Positions 46,260 to 55,735 of a DNA stretch of 64,000 bases are shown here, one piece after another. The notes beneath the pieces are model-generated. The model had not been told where the DNA came from, did not search any database, and was given only the letters and a program-made list of their open reading frames with translations. Origin of the DNA: Myxococcales bacterium (lineage in GTDB: Bacteria; Myxococcota; Myxococcia; Myxococcales; JAKAPL01); the NCBI GenBank assembly GCA_021783235.1, contig JAJXUD010000003.1:1-64000 (forward strand). Direction: 5' to 3'. A program made the translations under genes and the position numbers. The stretch's first letter is position 1; each line of letters begins with the position of its first letter.

Positions 46260-47792
46260 ATGCGCACGACCCTGCTCACCCTTTTCAGCCTGACCTTGGC
46301 GACCGCCTGCGGTCGCTCGATCTTCTACGACGCGGTCGCGGAGTCGGGCTACCCAGCCGGGAGCGGCGGTTCGACGTCGGGGACGAGCGGCTCGGGGACG
46401 AGCGGCAGCGCCGGTCGGGGCAGCGGCACGACCGGCTGGAGTTCGAGCGGCGGCTGGAGCACGAGTTCGAGCGGCGGCTGGAGCACGAGCTCGAGCGGCG
46501 GCTGGAGCACGAGCTCGAGCGGCGGCTGGAGCACGAGCTCGAGCGGCGGCTGGAGCACGGGCTCGAGCGGCGGCTGGAGCACGGGCTCGAGCGGCGGCTC
46601 CAGCTCTGGCGGTGGGAGCAGCAGCGGCTGCAACCCCAACGGCCGCCCCGCGGGTCAGATCCCCCAGACGTGCCGCAGCAGCTCGGACTGCCCCTGCCCG
46701 CTCGGCTGCTTCCCGTCGGGCTATGGGATCTCGCTCTGCGAGCAGCCCTGTCAGAGCACGCAGGACTGCGCCGCGCTCGACACGCTCTGCGACGGCACGA
46801 GCTGTCAGCCGAACCTCTGTGGCGTCTCCTTCCAGGGTCCGCAGAACGGCACGCTCGACGGCCGCTGCAACGCGCTCGGACAGAGCGACGGGAGCTGCGT
46901 GCCGGTGAGCTTCCAGGGCTTCACGGCCGGTCTTTGCTACCAGGGAGGTCAGGCGACCGGCTCCTGCGACCCGCGGGCGACCCGCGGCGATCTCTCTCAG
47001 GCCTGCGTGGCCGGCGACTACTGCGTCCGGCAGGGGAGGGGCGGCGGCGTCTGCGAGCCGCTCTGCAACCCTCAGACGGGCAGTCCCGGCTGCCAGCAGG
47101 GTAGCTGCAGCGCCCCGCGCTCGAGCGACCCGCAGCTCGGCGTCTGCCAGGGCGGCGGCGGCACGAGCGGCGGCTTTGGCGACGGAGGCGTCGGTTCGAG
47201 CGGAGGCGGCAGCGGCGGGAGCAGCGGCGGCGGCACGGGCGGCGGCTGCGCCCCGCCTCCGCCGGGAGCAGCGGCGAACGAGCTTCAGCCGTGCCAGGTC
47301 GACGCGGATTGCTCCTGCCCGCTCGCCTGCCTGCACGACGCGTTCGCGAACGGGTCGCTCTGCGAGTACCCCTGCCAGTCGACCTCCCAGTGCCCCACCG
47401 CCTACACCGTCTGCAGCTCGTTCGGCGGCTGCGCGCTCGACGCCTGCGGGGTCAGCCTGGACGGGCTCACGAACGGCGTGCTCGACGGGATCTGCAACGC
47501 CCAAGGGACGGCCGACGGCACCTGCTTGCCCGTGCAGTTGGACGGCGGCCAGCAGCTCGGCCTCTGCCTCCAGGGGGGCAGCTCCGACGGCGGCTGCGAT
47601 CCGACGGCGACGCGGCCCGACCTCGGGCAGATGTGCCCCCCGGGCGACTTCTGCGCCCAGGGGCCGAACGGGAACGTCTGCTACCAGCTCTGCGACCCGA
47701 CGAGCGGCTCCCCGGCCTGTCCGGCCGGCCAGAGCTGCTTTCAGCCGAGCTCGACGCAGGACGCCGCGTTCGGGATCTGCTTCGCCGGGTAA
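46260..47792 (+). CDS. Cys-rich lipoprotein with Trp/Ser/Gly repeat linker
   Basis: 510 residues. Lipobox FSLTLATAC. Residues 32-125 are a Ser/Gly/Thr/Trp linker containing tandem SSGGWSTS units. Two homologous Cys-rich modules follow (about 125-310 and 340-510), each with CPCPLGCF or CSCPLACL, CQSTQDC or CQSTSQC, LCGVSFQG or ACGVSLDG, and GxLDGxCNAxG, joined by a second Gly/Ser linker. Fourteen or more cysteines per module imply disulfide-stabilised, EGF-like surface repeats. Function unknown; such proteins are numerous in Myxococcota. Confidence 0.75.
   Translation: MRTTLLTLFSLTLATACGRSIFYDAVAESGYPAGSGGSTSGTSGSGTSGSAGRGSGTTGWSSSGGWSTSSSGGWSTSSSGGWSTSSSGGWSTSSSGGWSTGSSGGWSTGSSGGSSSGGGSSSGCNPNGRPAGQIPQTCRSSSDCPCPLGCFPSGYGISLCEQPCQSTQDCAALDTLCDGTSCQPNLCGVSFQGPQNGTLDGRCNALGQSDGSCVPVSFQGFTAGLCYQGGQATGSCDPRATRGDLSQACVAGDYCVRQGRGGGVCEPLCNPQTGSPGCQQGSCSAPRSSDPQLGVCQGGGGTSGGFGDGGVGSSGGGSGGSSGGGTGGGCAPPPPGAAANELQPCQVDADCSCPLACLHDAFANGSLCEYPCQSTSQCPTAYTVCSSFGGCALDACGVSLDGLTNGVLDGICNAQGTADGTCLPVQLDGGQQLGLCLQGGSSDGGCDPTATRPDLGQMCPPGDFCAQGPNGNVCYQLCDPTSGSPACPAGQSCFQPSSTQDAAFGICFAG
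46442..46600 (+). repeat. 24-bp minisatellite encoding SSGGWSTS units
   Basis: About 6.5 head-to-tail copies of a 24-base unit (TTCGAGCGGCGGCTGGAGCA plus CGAG), first copy at 46442-46465. Since 24 is divisible by 3, copy-number change would lengthen or shorten the linker without a frameshift. The other forward frame reads LERRLEHE repeats and is a shadow. Confidence 0.9.
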
Positions 47793-47806
47793 GAGGCCGA
47801 GCTCGC

Positions 47807-49243
47807 TCAGCCCGCCCCGTAGGAATGCAGCCCCTCGCCGGTCAGGCCGAGGTTCACGCCCATGTAGCAGAAGATGACCACCGCGAAGCCGGCGACGGCG
47901 ATGAACGCCCCCGGCTTTCCCGTCCAGCCGAGCGTGATGCGCGTGTGGAGGTAGACCGCGTAGACGAACCAGGTGATGAGGGCCCAGGTCTCCTTCGGGT
48001 CCCAGCCCCAGTAGCGCCCCCACGAGTAGTGGGCCCAGACCGCGCCCATCACGATCCCCACCGAGAGGAACGGGAAGCCGACCGTGATCACCCGGTAGAT
48101 GATGTCGTCGAGCTTCTTGGCCTCGGGCAGCTCGAGCTTCAGGCTGCCGCGGAAGCGGGTGACGGCGAGGAAGACGCCGCTGCAGACGAGGGTGAGGACG
48201 AGCAGCCCCACCGCGTCGGGGTTGCCCGCGAGGGCGAAGCGGTACGGGCCCACGAGGTCCTGCTCGAGCTGGCCCGCGACCTGCGGCAGCTGCACGGCTC
48301 CGCCGAACCAGAGGTGGGCGAAGAGGATCGCGACCCCCACGGCGAGGAGCGCCGTGGCGGCCGAGAGCGCCCCGAAGGCCGCTCCCTTCGCGCCGAGGTC
48401 GCCGCTCTGACCCTTGAGGCGCCGGATCTGCCGGAAGTAGAGCGCGGCCGCGAGCAGGTAGGCCGCCGCCGCCGCGAGCAAGAACGGCCCCACGCCGGGC
48501 ACGTCGACGAAGAGCCGCTGGGCCTTGTCGGCTCCCGGGGCCATCCAGTGGAGCGGAGAGAGGCGGCCGCCCTCGTTCAGGCCCACCGGGCAGAGCTGGA
48601 AGGCGAGGTGGCCGAAGAGCGAGCGGACGCCGCCGGCGAGCAGGACGACCGGCGCCGCGAGCGCGGCGAGAAAGGCGCCGATCTCGTGCGAGGGGGTCTC
48701 GACCTTGAAGAGGAACGCCATGCCGAAGCCGCAGGCGACGAGGAAGCAGGCGTACGCGATGAAGAGGTTCCAGACGTGGATGAGGATCCAGTAGCTCTTG
48801 AGGGCCGGCACGAGCGGCTCGACCTCGGGGTTCGGCACGAGCAGCGCGCGGCCGAGGAGGAGGAGGCCGATTCCCACCGCGACGCAGCCCATCGTGGGGA
48901 AGTGCCACTTCCGCTCCGAGACGAAGTAGATGAAGACCACCATGAACGAGAGGAACGTCAGGCTCTCGTAGAAGTTCGTGTACGGGGGGTGGCCGACCGC
49001 GGTGAGGAACCAGTCGATCCCGTGGAGCGGGTGGCCGAGGGAGCCCTCCATGGCGGCGAGCTCGGCCTTGCCGGCCATCACCCAGCGAGCGACGAGCGCC
49101 CCCGCCTGCATGGCGAGCCCGACGGCGACGGCGGCCGGCCCGAGGATCTTCCAGATTCGCCGGCTCGAGACGAGCGACCAGACGTAGTCGCTGAAGGCGA
49201 AGAGGTAGGTGAAGAACGACAGCTCGAAGAGCGCTCTGGACAT
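47807..49243 (-). CDS. ccsA: CcsA/ResC-type cytochrome c biogenesis protein
   Basis: 478 residues with about ten or more transmembrane helices. The haem-handling WWD motif is present as [17 protein letters not shown], with the flanking conserved His residues (AHYSWG; YLHTR). [11 protein letters not shown] near residue 90 is another family signature. It delivers haem in system II cytochrome c maturation together with ResB/Ccs1, which is not adjacent. It is longer than typical CcsA (about 330) because of an internal stretch around residues 180-330. The 286 bases upstream (49244-49529) hold no gene I can see. Confidence 0.88.
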
Positions 49244-49529
49244 GGGCAGACTCCCGCCCTCGGTGGGCTGGTCGTTGTTCTAAACCCCCGGCATCCCAAG
49301 TCAAGCCGGCCTGCTGCCCGCGCAGGGCTCCCCCTTTGGCCCCGCGGAGGCGGCTCTTTCCGACGGAGACTAAGGTTTTCCCCAATGGACTTCAGCGGCC
49401 GCCGCGCCCGATAGTCCGGCGCTGAGGTTCCGGGGCCAATGCGTTCGTGCCTTGGCGGGGGGTTCGCGGGCCAATGGCCCTGGAACCTCTATCCGTTCAT
49501 CTTCGAAATCCCGAGCGAAGCCGGCGGCT

Positions 49530-50423
49530 TCAGCGCTCGCCGCTCCAGAGCCGCTTCGCCAGCTCGGCCCGCCCGTCCACCGCGGCCTTCTCGAAGATTC
49601 GGCTCAGGTGGGCCTCGATCGTCCCCGGCGCGCAGCCCAGCCGGCCGGCGATCTCCCGGTTCGAGAGCCCCTCGAGCAAGAGCGCCGCCACCTCCGCCTC
49701 GCGCGGCGTCAGGCGAAAGGCCGCCTTGGCGCGGGCGAGGGCGGGCGGGAGCGCTCGGCGACTCTTTTCGATCTCGGCGAGCTCACCGAGCCGGGTCCGA
49801 AGCTCTTCGATCCGCTCGGCCCAGTGCGCCTCGATGGCCCGCAGGATCTCCTCGCCGGGTGCCATCCGCGCGGCGACCGTCCGCGCCGGGGGCATTCGCA
49901 GGGTGAGAACGAGGCGCCGCGGGGTTCGCTCCTCCACGGTGGCCTTCGACTCGGCCAGCCCGAGCGCGCGCGGAACCGAGACGGCCGCGCCCTCGGTGCC
50001 GTGCCAGAACGGCAGCGAGCCGCGGAGCCCGCTCGGGATCTCCCCGACGAGCCGCACGCGATTGCCGGGGAGGAACTCGTGGCGGCAGCGGTTCGCCGGC
50101 CAGAGCCAGGGGGCGATGGAGGTCCCGCAGACGCGGTAGGCGTTCCGCGGGCTGACGACGAGCCGCAGGAGGTCGCTCAGCGGCCGGTGCTCCGCATAGA
50201 AGCGGCGGCCGATCCGCGCGAGCGCTCCGGGGCCGCCCAGCTCGTCGGCGATCCGGTCGAGCAGCTCCGTGAACGGCTCCCAGTCGACCCGGCCGAACGG
50301 CCGCCTCGCGAGCGTCCGCTCGCTGAAGGGCAGGCCGTCCGTCAGCGGCGAGAGGTCGGCGATGCCCTCCTTGCGGCAGGCGAGGAGGATCTGGTGGATC
50401 GCCTGCGCGAGGACCTCGTGCAC
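49530..50423 (-). CDS. LuxR-type regulator with unrecognised N-terminal domain (copy 3)
   Basis: 297 residues from the GTG at 50423 (GAGGGG ribosome site), chosen because both paralogues start at the same motif (xxEVLxQ). The N-terminal domain of about 220 residues has GLPFSERTLARRPFGRVDWEPF, ALARIGRRFY, IAPWLWP and GSLPFWHGTEGA. After a short coiled-coil-like linker (AHWAERIEELRTRLGEL) comes a LuxR helix-turn-helix (LTPREAEVAALLLEGLSNRE). It lies downstream of copies 2 and 1, with 5-base gaps. The N-terminal domain probably senses a ligand, but none can be named. Confidence 0.8.
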   Translation of the reverse strand: MHEVLAQAIHQILLACRKEGIADLSPLTDGLPFSERTLARRPFGRVDWEPFTELLDRIADELGGPGALARIGRRFYAEHRPLSDLLRLVVSPRNAYRVCGTSIAPWLWPANRCRHEFLPGNRVRLVGEIPSGLRGSLPFWHGTEGAAVSVPRALGLAESKATVEERTPRRLVLTLRMPPARTVAARMAPGEEILRAIEAHWAERIEELRTRLGELAEIEKSRRALPPALARAKAAFRLTPREAEVAALLLEGLSNREIAGRLGCAPGTIEAHLSRIFEKAAVDGRAELAKRLWSGER

Positions 50424-50428
50424 TGTGG

Positions 50429-51313
50429 CTACCCCTCCGCCCGCAAGAGCCGCTTCATCAGCTCCAGCCGGCCCTCGAGCTGCGCCTTCGCGAAGACGTG
50501 GCTCAGGTGGGCCTCGACGGTGCCCGGGGCGCAGCCGAGCCGCTGGGCGATCGCGCGGTTCGAGAGCCCCTCGATCGCGAGGGAGACCACCTCCCGCTCG
50601 CGCGGCGTGAGCCGCCAGGCGATCTGCGCCCGCTCGATCCCGAGCGGCGCGCCCCCGCCTTCCGTCCCGAGGTCCGTGAGCCCGGCGAGCAGCTCCTCCC
50701 GCCGCTCGGCCCACTCGAGCTCGAGCGAGCGGAGCAGCGCCCGGGCCGGACGCAGCCGGGCGGCCAGGGTCCGCGACGGCGGCAGGCGAAGCGTCATCAC
50801 CATCCGATGCGGAGTCCGCTCCGCGACCTCGGCCACCGAATGGGGCAGCCCGAGAAAGGCCGGGATCGACTCGTCGGCCCCCTGGGTCCCCCAGAAGAAG
50901 GGGAGCGATCCCCGCGCCCCCGCCGGGAGATCGTACTCGAGCCGGAGCCGATCGCCCGGGAGGAAGGCGTGGCGGTGGCTGTGCGTCGGCCAGAGCCACG
51001 GCACGATCGAGTCGTAGACCAGCCGGTAGAGCTCTTTCGGCCCGGCCACGAGGCGGAGGAGGCCGGCCATCGGGGGATGGCCCTTGTAGAAGTGGTGGGC
51101 CAACCGCCGGAACTCCTCGGGGCCGCCGAGGAGTTCGGCCAGCCGGTCGAGCAGGAGGGTGAACGGCTCCCAGTCGATCCGGCCGAAGGGGCGCCGCGCG
51201 AGGCTCTGCTCGTCGAACGGCAGCCCCGCGAAGAGCGGCGCGAGATCCCGCGCTCCTTCGAGGCGCGCACCGGCCAGGATCTGCTGCGCCACCTGGTTCA
51301 AGACCTCGCGCAC
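50429..51313 (-). CDS. LuxR-type regulator with unrecognised N-terminal domain (copy 2)
   Basis: 294 residues, GTG start. Same layout as its neighbours: GLPFDEQSLARRPFGRIDWEPF, LAHHFYKGHPP, IVPWLWP, GSLPFFWGTQGA, then the LuxR helix-turn-helix LTPREREVVSLAIEGLSNRA. The sequence between the two domains has ELEWAERREELLAGL, likely helical and involved in dimerisation. It starts 6 bases after the stop of copy 1. Confidence 0.8.
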   Translation of the reverse strand: MREVLNQVAQQILAGARLEGARDLAPLFAGLPFDEQSLARRPFGRIDWEPFTLLLDRLAELLGGPEEFRRLAHHFYKGHPPMAGLLRLVAGPKELYRLVYDSIVPWLWPTHSHRHAFLPGDRLRLEYDLPAGARGSLPFFWGTQGADESIPAFLGLPHSVAEVAERTPHRMVMTLRLPPSRTLAARLRPARALLRSLELEWAERREELLAGLTDLGTEGGGAPLGIERAQIAWRLTPREREVVSLAIEGLSNRAIAQRLGCAPGTVEAHLSHVFAKAQLEGRLELMKRLLRAEG

Positions 51314-51319
51314 CGCGCC

Positions 51320-52207
51320 CTATCCCTCCGTTCGCAAGAGCCGCCCCATCAGCTCGACGCGTCCGCCCACCCGGGCCTTCTGAAAGACGTGGCTCAGGTG
51401 GGCCTCGACCGTGCCCCGGTGGCAGCCGAGCCGCTCGGCGATCTCGCGGTTCGAGAGCCCCTCGAGGACGAGCGCGACCACCTCTTCCTCGCGCGCCGTC
51501 AGCCGCCAGAGCACTCGCGCCGCCTCCGAGGGCCGCGGCCGCGCCGGAGCCGGGACGCTCGCCTCGAGCTCCCCGAGCCGGGTTCGCAGCTCGGCCTGCC
51601 GCTCCGACCACTGGAGCTCGAGCGAGCGGATCAGCGCCTCGTCGGGCTGGAGGCGCGAGCGGATGGTCCGCGCCGGCGGCAGCCGCAGCGCCAGAAGGAG
51701 GCGGTGCGGCGTCCGCTCGAGAGGCTCCGCCACCGCGTCGGGGAGGCCGAGGAGAGTCGGAAGCGAGGACATCGACCCTTCCACGACGTACCAGAAGGGG
51801 AGCGACCCGCGGGCGAGCGGCGGCAGCTCGGCCTCGACCCGCAGCCGGTCGCCGGCGAGGAAGGCATGCCCCATTCGCAGCGCCGGCCAGAGCCAGGGGC
51901 CGATCGAGCCGAGGACCAGCCGGTAGAGGTGGCGGGGGCCCACGAGGAGCCGGAGGAGATCGGAGAGCGGGTGGTCGTGGAAGGTGCGCCGGCCGAGCGC
52001 GAGCATCCCCGGCGGGCCACCCCGGGCCTCGGCGACCCGATCGAGCAAGAGGGAGAACGGCTCCCAGTCCACCCGGCCGAGCGGCCGCCGCGCGAGCGAC
52101 CGCTCGTCGAATGGGAGCCCGGCGAAGAGACCCGGGAACTCTCCCATCCCGTCGCGCCGGCAGGCGAGCAGCAGCTCGATGACCGCCTGGTTCAGCACCT
52201 CGCGCAC
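51320..52207 (-). CDS. LuxR-type regulator with unrecognised N-terminal domain (copy 1)
   Basis: 295 residues from the GTG at 52207, matching the start of the paralogues; a TTG at 52228 is also in frame. N-terminal domain with GLPFDERSLARRPLGRVDWEPF, LALGRRTFHDHP, IGPWLWP and GSLPFWYVVEGS; helix-turn-helix LTAREEEVVALVLEGLSNRE. It is first in a tight three-gene unit. The three share the same conserved positions but differ at about half of all residues, so the triplication is old and the copies have probably diverged in ligand or target. Confidence 0.8.
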   Translation of the reverse strand: MREVLNQAVIELLLACRRDGMGEFPGLFAGLPFDERSLARRPLGRVDWEPFSLLLDRVAEARGGPPGMLALGRRTFHDHPLSDLLRLLVGPRHLYRLVLGSIGPWLWPALRMGHAFLAGDRLRVEAELPPLARGSLPFWYVVEGSMSSLPTLLGLPDAVAEPLERTPHRLLLALRLPPARTIRSRLQPDEALIRSLELQWSERQAELRTRLGELEASVPAPARPRPSEAARVLWRLTAREEEVVALVLEGLSNREIAERLGCHRGTVEAHLSHVFQKARVGGRVELMGRLLRTEG

Positions 52208-52284
52208 GGAACCCGACCCGCCGGCCAATTCGGCCGCCTCCCCGGCATTCTACCGCCCACCCACCCCTCCGCGAAAGGCGTCCG

Positions 52285-53316
<1,032 letters not shown>

Positions 53317-53348
53317 GGTCTTTGTCTCCGAAGAGGAAGGATAGGGGA

Positions 53349-55244
<1,896 letters not shown>

Positions 55245-55735
55245 GGTTCCTCGCTGCCCCCGGAATGAGCCGAAAAACTCGCTGCTGCCGCACGCGTCTT
55301 TTCCGCGATGAGCCTATAGTCGATCGCGGGACTTTTGGCCAGCCCGACGCCGAGCCGGGCCCAAGTGGGTAACGCGGCGACGCGACCGTCCCGTCCCCGA
55401 ACGGGGTCCACCCGGCACTTCGCGCCCCCCTTGGCCGGGACCGGCGGTGCTCCCGTGCGCCGAACGCCGTGATCTCCCGGGGAGCAGTTGGCCGGATGGG
55501 CCGAGCAGGGGCTCGCGTTCGCGGGGTTGTTCAGATCGCGAAACGTCAGGACGGCGGGTCCCGTTCGGCGTGGGTTCGGGAAGTTGCGAACGCAGGCTCC
55601 CATGGCGGCGCATGGATCGAGCATGCGAAGCCCATGGCAGAGCGGCGCCGCGGCGCCTCTGGGGGCACTTTCCGCGCCTCGGTGGTGGGACTTGCCGAGG
55701 GCCTTCTCGGCCCCCACCTTTCGGGCACGCCCACC
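55245..55735. other. intergenic region between korA and the first paralogous lipoprotein gene
   Basis: About 490 bases without a convincing gene. The left part holds the presumed korA promoter. Bases 55581-55637 are similar to 56964-57020, and 55674-55735 are the 5' part of the 200-bp block shared with 58356-58556. Both matched blocks lie upstream of paralogous lipoprotein genes. Confidence 0.6.

Follow-up and report, generated by a model that had tools for sequence, protein, structure and literature searches.

Three tandem LuxR-type regulators of a Myxococcales bacterium carry a sensor domain with a predicted haem-less H-NOX/VirS-like fold

Three adjacent genes for LuxR-type regulators in a contig of a Myxococcales bacterium raise the question of what their common N-terminal domain could sense, and what the three copies are for. 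The genes (R1, R2 and R3) lie on the same strand of the window, by which we mean the whole analysed stretch of 64,000 nucleotides, with 6 bases between R1 and R2 and 5 bases between R2 and R3. Their pairwise overall identities are 58, 56 and 57%, in agreement with the original prediction of three neighbours sharing one N-terminal domain. Each of them starts with GTG, all reading frames are intact, the GC3 of 93-94% is as expected of real genes here, and the copies match one another in tblastn at E of about 1e-100, which is far beyond chance. Of the motifs named in that prediction, GLPFxExxLARRPxGRxDWEPF, the Phe/His-rich segment, PWLWP and RGSLPF are present in the trio, whereas GTxGA occurs only in R2 and R3 and is replaced by VVEGS in R1. 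Translational coupling of R1-R3 is suggested by the sequence, because the GGAGG sites of R2 and R3 sit inside the last codons of the preceding gene (Table 1).

Table 1. Features of the regulator trio and its upstream neighbours (positions in the window)
Feature	Positions	Strand	Basis or remark
R1, LuxR-type regulator, 295 aa (sensor, helical linker, GerE HTH)	51320..52207	-	
R2, LuxR-type regulator, 294 aa	50429..51313	-	residues 1-225 modelled with AlphaFold2
R3, LuxR-type regulator, 297 aa	49530..50423	-	full-length AlphaFold2 model
R1 sensor domain (about residues 1-182), H-NOX/VirS-like fold by homology	51662..52207	-	
R2 sensor domain (about residues 1-183); pocket candidates Trp48, Phe51, Phe140	50765..51313	-	AlphaFold2 model, Foldseek, profile alignment
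R3 sensor domain (about residues 1-183)	49875..50423	-	AlphaFold2 model, Foldseek
R1 GerE/LuxR HTH (residues 236-286)	51350..51502	-	Pfam
R2 GerE/LuxR HTH (residues 235-286)	50456..50611	-	Pfam
R3 GerE/LuxR HTH (residues 238-289)	49557..49712	-	Pfam
GGAGG ribosome-binding-like site of R2, within last codons of R1	51325..51329	-	sequence
GGAGG ribosome-binding-like site of R3, within last codons of R2	50434..50438	-	sequence
korB, 2-oxoacid:ferredoxin oxidoreductase beta-like	52285..53316	-	77 bases upstream of R1
korA, 2-oxoacid:ferredoxin oxidoreductase alpha/gamma-like	53349..55244	-	POR_N, POR, PFOR_II

By sequence the domain is unrecognised, as had been proposed. Residues 1-215 of R1-R3 match nothing in Pfam or NCBIfam, a 13-member profile of the sensor domain found nothing among the PDB sequences, and the PF12625 Pfam model matched 0 of the 13 members at E<=10. 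The sensor family was not described in the open-licence PMC literature on PF12625, DUF2378 or V4R with LuxR. A profile search detected the domain in 34 of 195 Myxococcota genomes, and the source genome holds two further copies, one in a LuxR-like protein (C64:16360) and one in a hybrid histidine kinase (C6:101389). When ten further members were checked with Pfam, nine were HisKA/HATPase_c kinases with the sensor domain at the N-terminus, and in none of the ten did that domain carry a Pfam label. The family also includes LuxR proteins 296-490 aa long, among them some in Myxococcus, as well as proteins that stop directly after the sensor domain; W48, P151-G155 and PPxRT are strongly conserved marks of the family. 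Judged from these sequences, the domain is a recurrent input module of Myxococcota, often placed on histidine kinases. Close relatives of the trio were not found by conserved patterns in 84,980 GTDB genomes or viral contigs, a scan with the Myxococcus LuxR subset gave two Myxococcus loci and no others, and among the plasmid matches listed only the HTH was covered. Tandem pairs of the sensor domain adjoin in two other Myxococcota genomes but are not of the trio's subfamily: in one pair (L063:3614-6083, minus strand; G105:C132) both proteins end directly after the domain and have no HTH, and the second pair (L067:2741-4359, minus strand; G149:C125) combines a protein with a LuxR-like tail and a short one.

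The LuxR-type output of the original prediction was confirmed, and its helical linker is borne out by a predicted structure. The GerE HTH (PF00196) scores 52-55 bits in all three proteins against a curated cut-off of 23.5, and in the full-length AlphaFold2 model of R3 a long helix (residues 183-221) runs between the sensor and the HTH. Within the trio the HTH is the best-conserved part (70-73% identity) and the recognition helices are 65-82% identical; the linkers are only 41-43% identical and segment 61-115 of the sensor 46-56%. In the tree, R1-R3 form one clade with a support of 100/100 and an unresolved splitting order, the distances being nearly equal, so that the trio arose by duplication within its own lineage, and not recently. 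The divergence had earlier been read as a sign of different signals or targets and not of recent amplification; the copies are indeed not recent duplicates, while different targets are the weaker half of that claim considering the similarity of the HTHs. With the HTH and recognition helices conserved and the linker and mid-sensor diverging, the copies are more likely to differ in signal, through other ligands or other affinities at operators that overlap, than in target. That the three copies would be functionally redundant, as a matter of dosage or partial decay, and not specialised, is unlikely in our opinion. The near-equal distances with their unresolved branching, the very similar recognition helices and the three intact frames would agree with redundancy, yet about 43% of the amino acids differ while all copies are intact and have kept the family motifs, which speaks for the retention of distinct roles; the NG86 dN/dS of 0.62-0.65, distorted by the 93-94% GC3, is not decisive in this respect.

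The predicted structures place the sensor domain among known folds. The AlphaFold2 model of R2 residues 1-225 (pLDDT 82.3, pTM 0.75) has an alpha/beta fold with the element order E112-118, E122-128, H137-154, E160-167, E170-176. When compared to the PDB with Foldseek, H-NOX proteins came on top (E 1.9e-5, TM up to 0.69 by target), followed by VirS 8rcw (TMq 0.53, rmsd 3.8), TRAPP/Bet3 subunits and CdpR 5chh. The full-length R3 model agrees on the fold, and for the two predicted models the H-NOX matches have E of 1.9e-5 and 4.1e-5 and TM by target of 0.5-0.69, which is likeness at fold level and not a close one; the models share an AlphaFold2 input of five sequences only, of two types, and are not fully independent. 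No match under E 0.001 was obtained from a viral structure library. Among the results that would speak against it, the original prediction had listed confident assignment to an established domain such as a haem-NO family, and the H-NOX/VirS-like predicted fold largely amounts to this.

Profile comparisons with hhalign, in which reversed and column-shuffled decoys gave E of at least 0.067, lead in the same direction. A 38-member profile of the sensor family matched a PF12625-type profile at E 1.5e-8 (probability 95.5%; decoys at least 0.12) and DUF2378 at E 3.7e-6 (probability 87%). Since VirS (at 7e-16) and, weakly, CdpR match the PF12625-type profile, sequence and structure indicate the same relatives. 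Compared directly, the sensor-family profile did not match H-NOX sequences significantly (E 0.022) and did not match the V4R set (E 0.49). A hybrid histidine kinase of another genome (L193:423-3344, minus strand; G058:C128) has one N-terminal domain that bridges the families, as the same stretch matches the sensor family at E 2.9e-12, H-NOX at 2.7e-5, PF12625 at 6.6e-4 and V4R at 1e-4. Predicted structure and profile comparison both support the reading of the sensor domain as a haem-less representative of a ligand-binding fold that occurs in H-NOX, in V4R/Bet3 and at the N-terminus of the AraC-type regulators VirS and CdpR. The fold is known, and it is the haem-less branch fused to LuxR that Pfam does not model; with this predicted fold, the profile kinship to PF12625 and DUF2378 and the recurrence in Myxococcota, the view of the domain as a new kind finds no support.

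The VirS cavity that holds alpibectir is fully enclosed and mainly hydrophobic, with Leu49, Phe52, Val53 and Ser146 among the lining residues (PMC13234193). In a remote alignment of sequence profiles, Trp48 of the sensor family pairs with VirS Leu49, Phe51 with Phe52, Thr52 with Val53, and Phe140, a conserved aromatic, with Ser146. Trp48 is near-invariant, being present in 37 of 38 family members. The ligand pocket that had been read from the invariant residues is therefore plausible, by inference from the remote alignment of Trp48 and Phe51 with residues of the VirS pocket, and the trio are most likely one-component regulators for a probably hydrophobic small ligand in an enclosed pocket.

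The same fold is also found in TRAPP Bet3-type subunits. Bet3-type proteins assemble complexes, and the sensor domain could likewise be a module for protein-protein interaction or dimerisation that senses no small molecule, in line with those family members that stop directly after the domain. We find this quite unlikely, as the conserved aromatics map onto the VirS drug pocket and the domain heads many histidine kinases and LuxR proteins, the usual place of an input domain.

A divergent H-NOX that truly senses NO, O2 or CO through haem would account for H-NOX proteins as the top structural matches and could make use of the trio's own shared histidines at about positions 79 and 115. However, the YxSxR motif occurs in 3 of 38 sensor-family members versus 23 of 23 H-NOX proteins of the same phylum, and the best His column reaches 8/38 versus 21/23. 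Going by sequence, the H-NOX proximal His would fall on the Tyr96 column, which holds Tyr, Leu, Phe or Met and His in 0 of 38 members, and the direct profile comparison with H-NOX gave no significant match. Because neither YxSxR nor a His, at the proximal position or elsewhere, is conserved, H-NOX-type haem sensing by the trio was rejected and has only a very slight chance of being right; with its own shared histidines the trio might still bind a metal or haem in some other way. We likewise rejected, as hardly credible, that the trio are acyl-homoserine-lactone LuxR receptors (quorum-sensing solos), for although the one-component layout with a LuxR HTH is suitable and RhlR and LasR are among the weak Foldseek matches of the full-length model, Autoind_bind does not match at E<=10 and those matches, with rmsd over 25 A and TM of about 0.2, show no overall fold agreement.

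Overall, we consider it likely that R1-R3 are one-component regulators in which a ligand sensor of haem-less H-NOX/V4R/VirS fold is relayed via a helix to the GerE HTH. The sensor would close round a small, mostly hydrophobic intracellular ligand, with Trp48, Phe51 and Phe140 as the walls suggested by the alignment with the VirS drug pocket, and the binding would be passed to the HTH through the long helix 183-221, a probable coiled coil of the dimer, the regulators presumably binding DNA as dimers. Coupled translation would produce R1-R3 side by side, so that they could pair as homo- and as heterodimers. At overlapping operators the copies probably respond to different ligands, or to one ligand with different affinities.

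The korB and korA genes lie upstream of the trio, with no terminator-like site in the 77 bases that separate korB from R1; on the downstream side follows a gene for cytochrome c assembly. In the korB-R1 gap (window 52208-52284, minus strand) there is an imperfect GC-rich inverted repeat, GGCCGAATTGGCC, as a candidate operator. No sigma-70-type promoters were found in 47700-55400, and the promoters of this host may differ. From the place downstream of korAB one might guess, weakly, that the trio controls 2-oxoacid or anaerobic carbon metabolism; kor genes were absent near the other sensor-family members checked, and the korAB adjacency is that of one genome. At window 46260-47792 (plus strand) we also observed a gene for a 510-aa Cys-rich protein, probably exported, with a GGWSTSSS-type tandem repeat, two similar Cys-rich units and no Pfam match.

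With this analysis, an input domain that heads many Myxococcota signalling proteins but escapes Pfam and NCBIfam gains a fold and a likely mode of sensing. The analysis also ties the sensor domain, DUF2378 and the AraC-type N-terminal domains (VirS, CdpR) to H-NOX and Bet3. The ligand becomes testable by thermal shift, an approach that was successful for VirS. In a bolder extension, for which we see a rather small probability, the Pfam-unmodelled haem-free H-NOX/V4R/VirS branch would be a general input module of Myxococcota, in LuxR proteins, hybrid kinases and solos, and the trio a combinatorial array of homo- and heterodimers through which several metabolites act on one set of operators beside korAB.

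Compared to known systems, the trio share the C-terminal HTH with LuxR/NarL (GerE) one-component regulators but have neither a receiver nor an AHL-binding domain in front of it. The likeness to V4R/TRAPP Bet3 is found in fold-level matches, in contrast to the direct profile comparison, which gave no match to the sensor family. DUF2378 (PF09536), a myxobacterial domain of unknown function, comes from the same phylum, likewise consists of one domain of roughly 180 aa and matches by profile, although there is no Pfam match between it and the sensor family; it was not detected in the source genome. H-NOX (HNOB, PF07700) is the top PDB fold match for both models and agrees in helix order and in the four-stranded sheet, but the trio's family is without the conserved proximal His, YxSxR or a significant direct profile match. 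The N-terminal region of CdpR has been described as novel in fold within the AraC proteins and as elusive in function (PMC4847859), and here CdpR 5chh groups, as a weak match, with VirS and the H-NOX-like fold. The Arabinose_bd/PF12625 domains (VirS 8rcw/8rcx, CdpR 5chh) differ from the trio's family in preceding an AraC HTH instead of a LuxR/GerE HTH or a histidine kinase, and W48, P151-G155 and PPxRT distinguish the family from them, but like the trio's sensor they stand before a DNA-binding output, are related to it by profile and align with it at the hydrophobic pocket positions.
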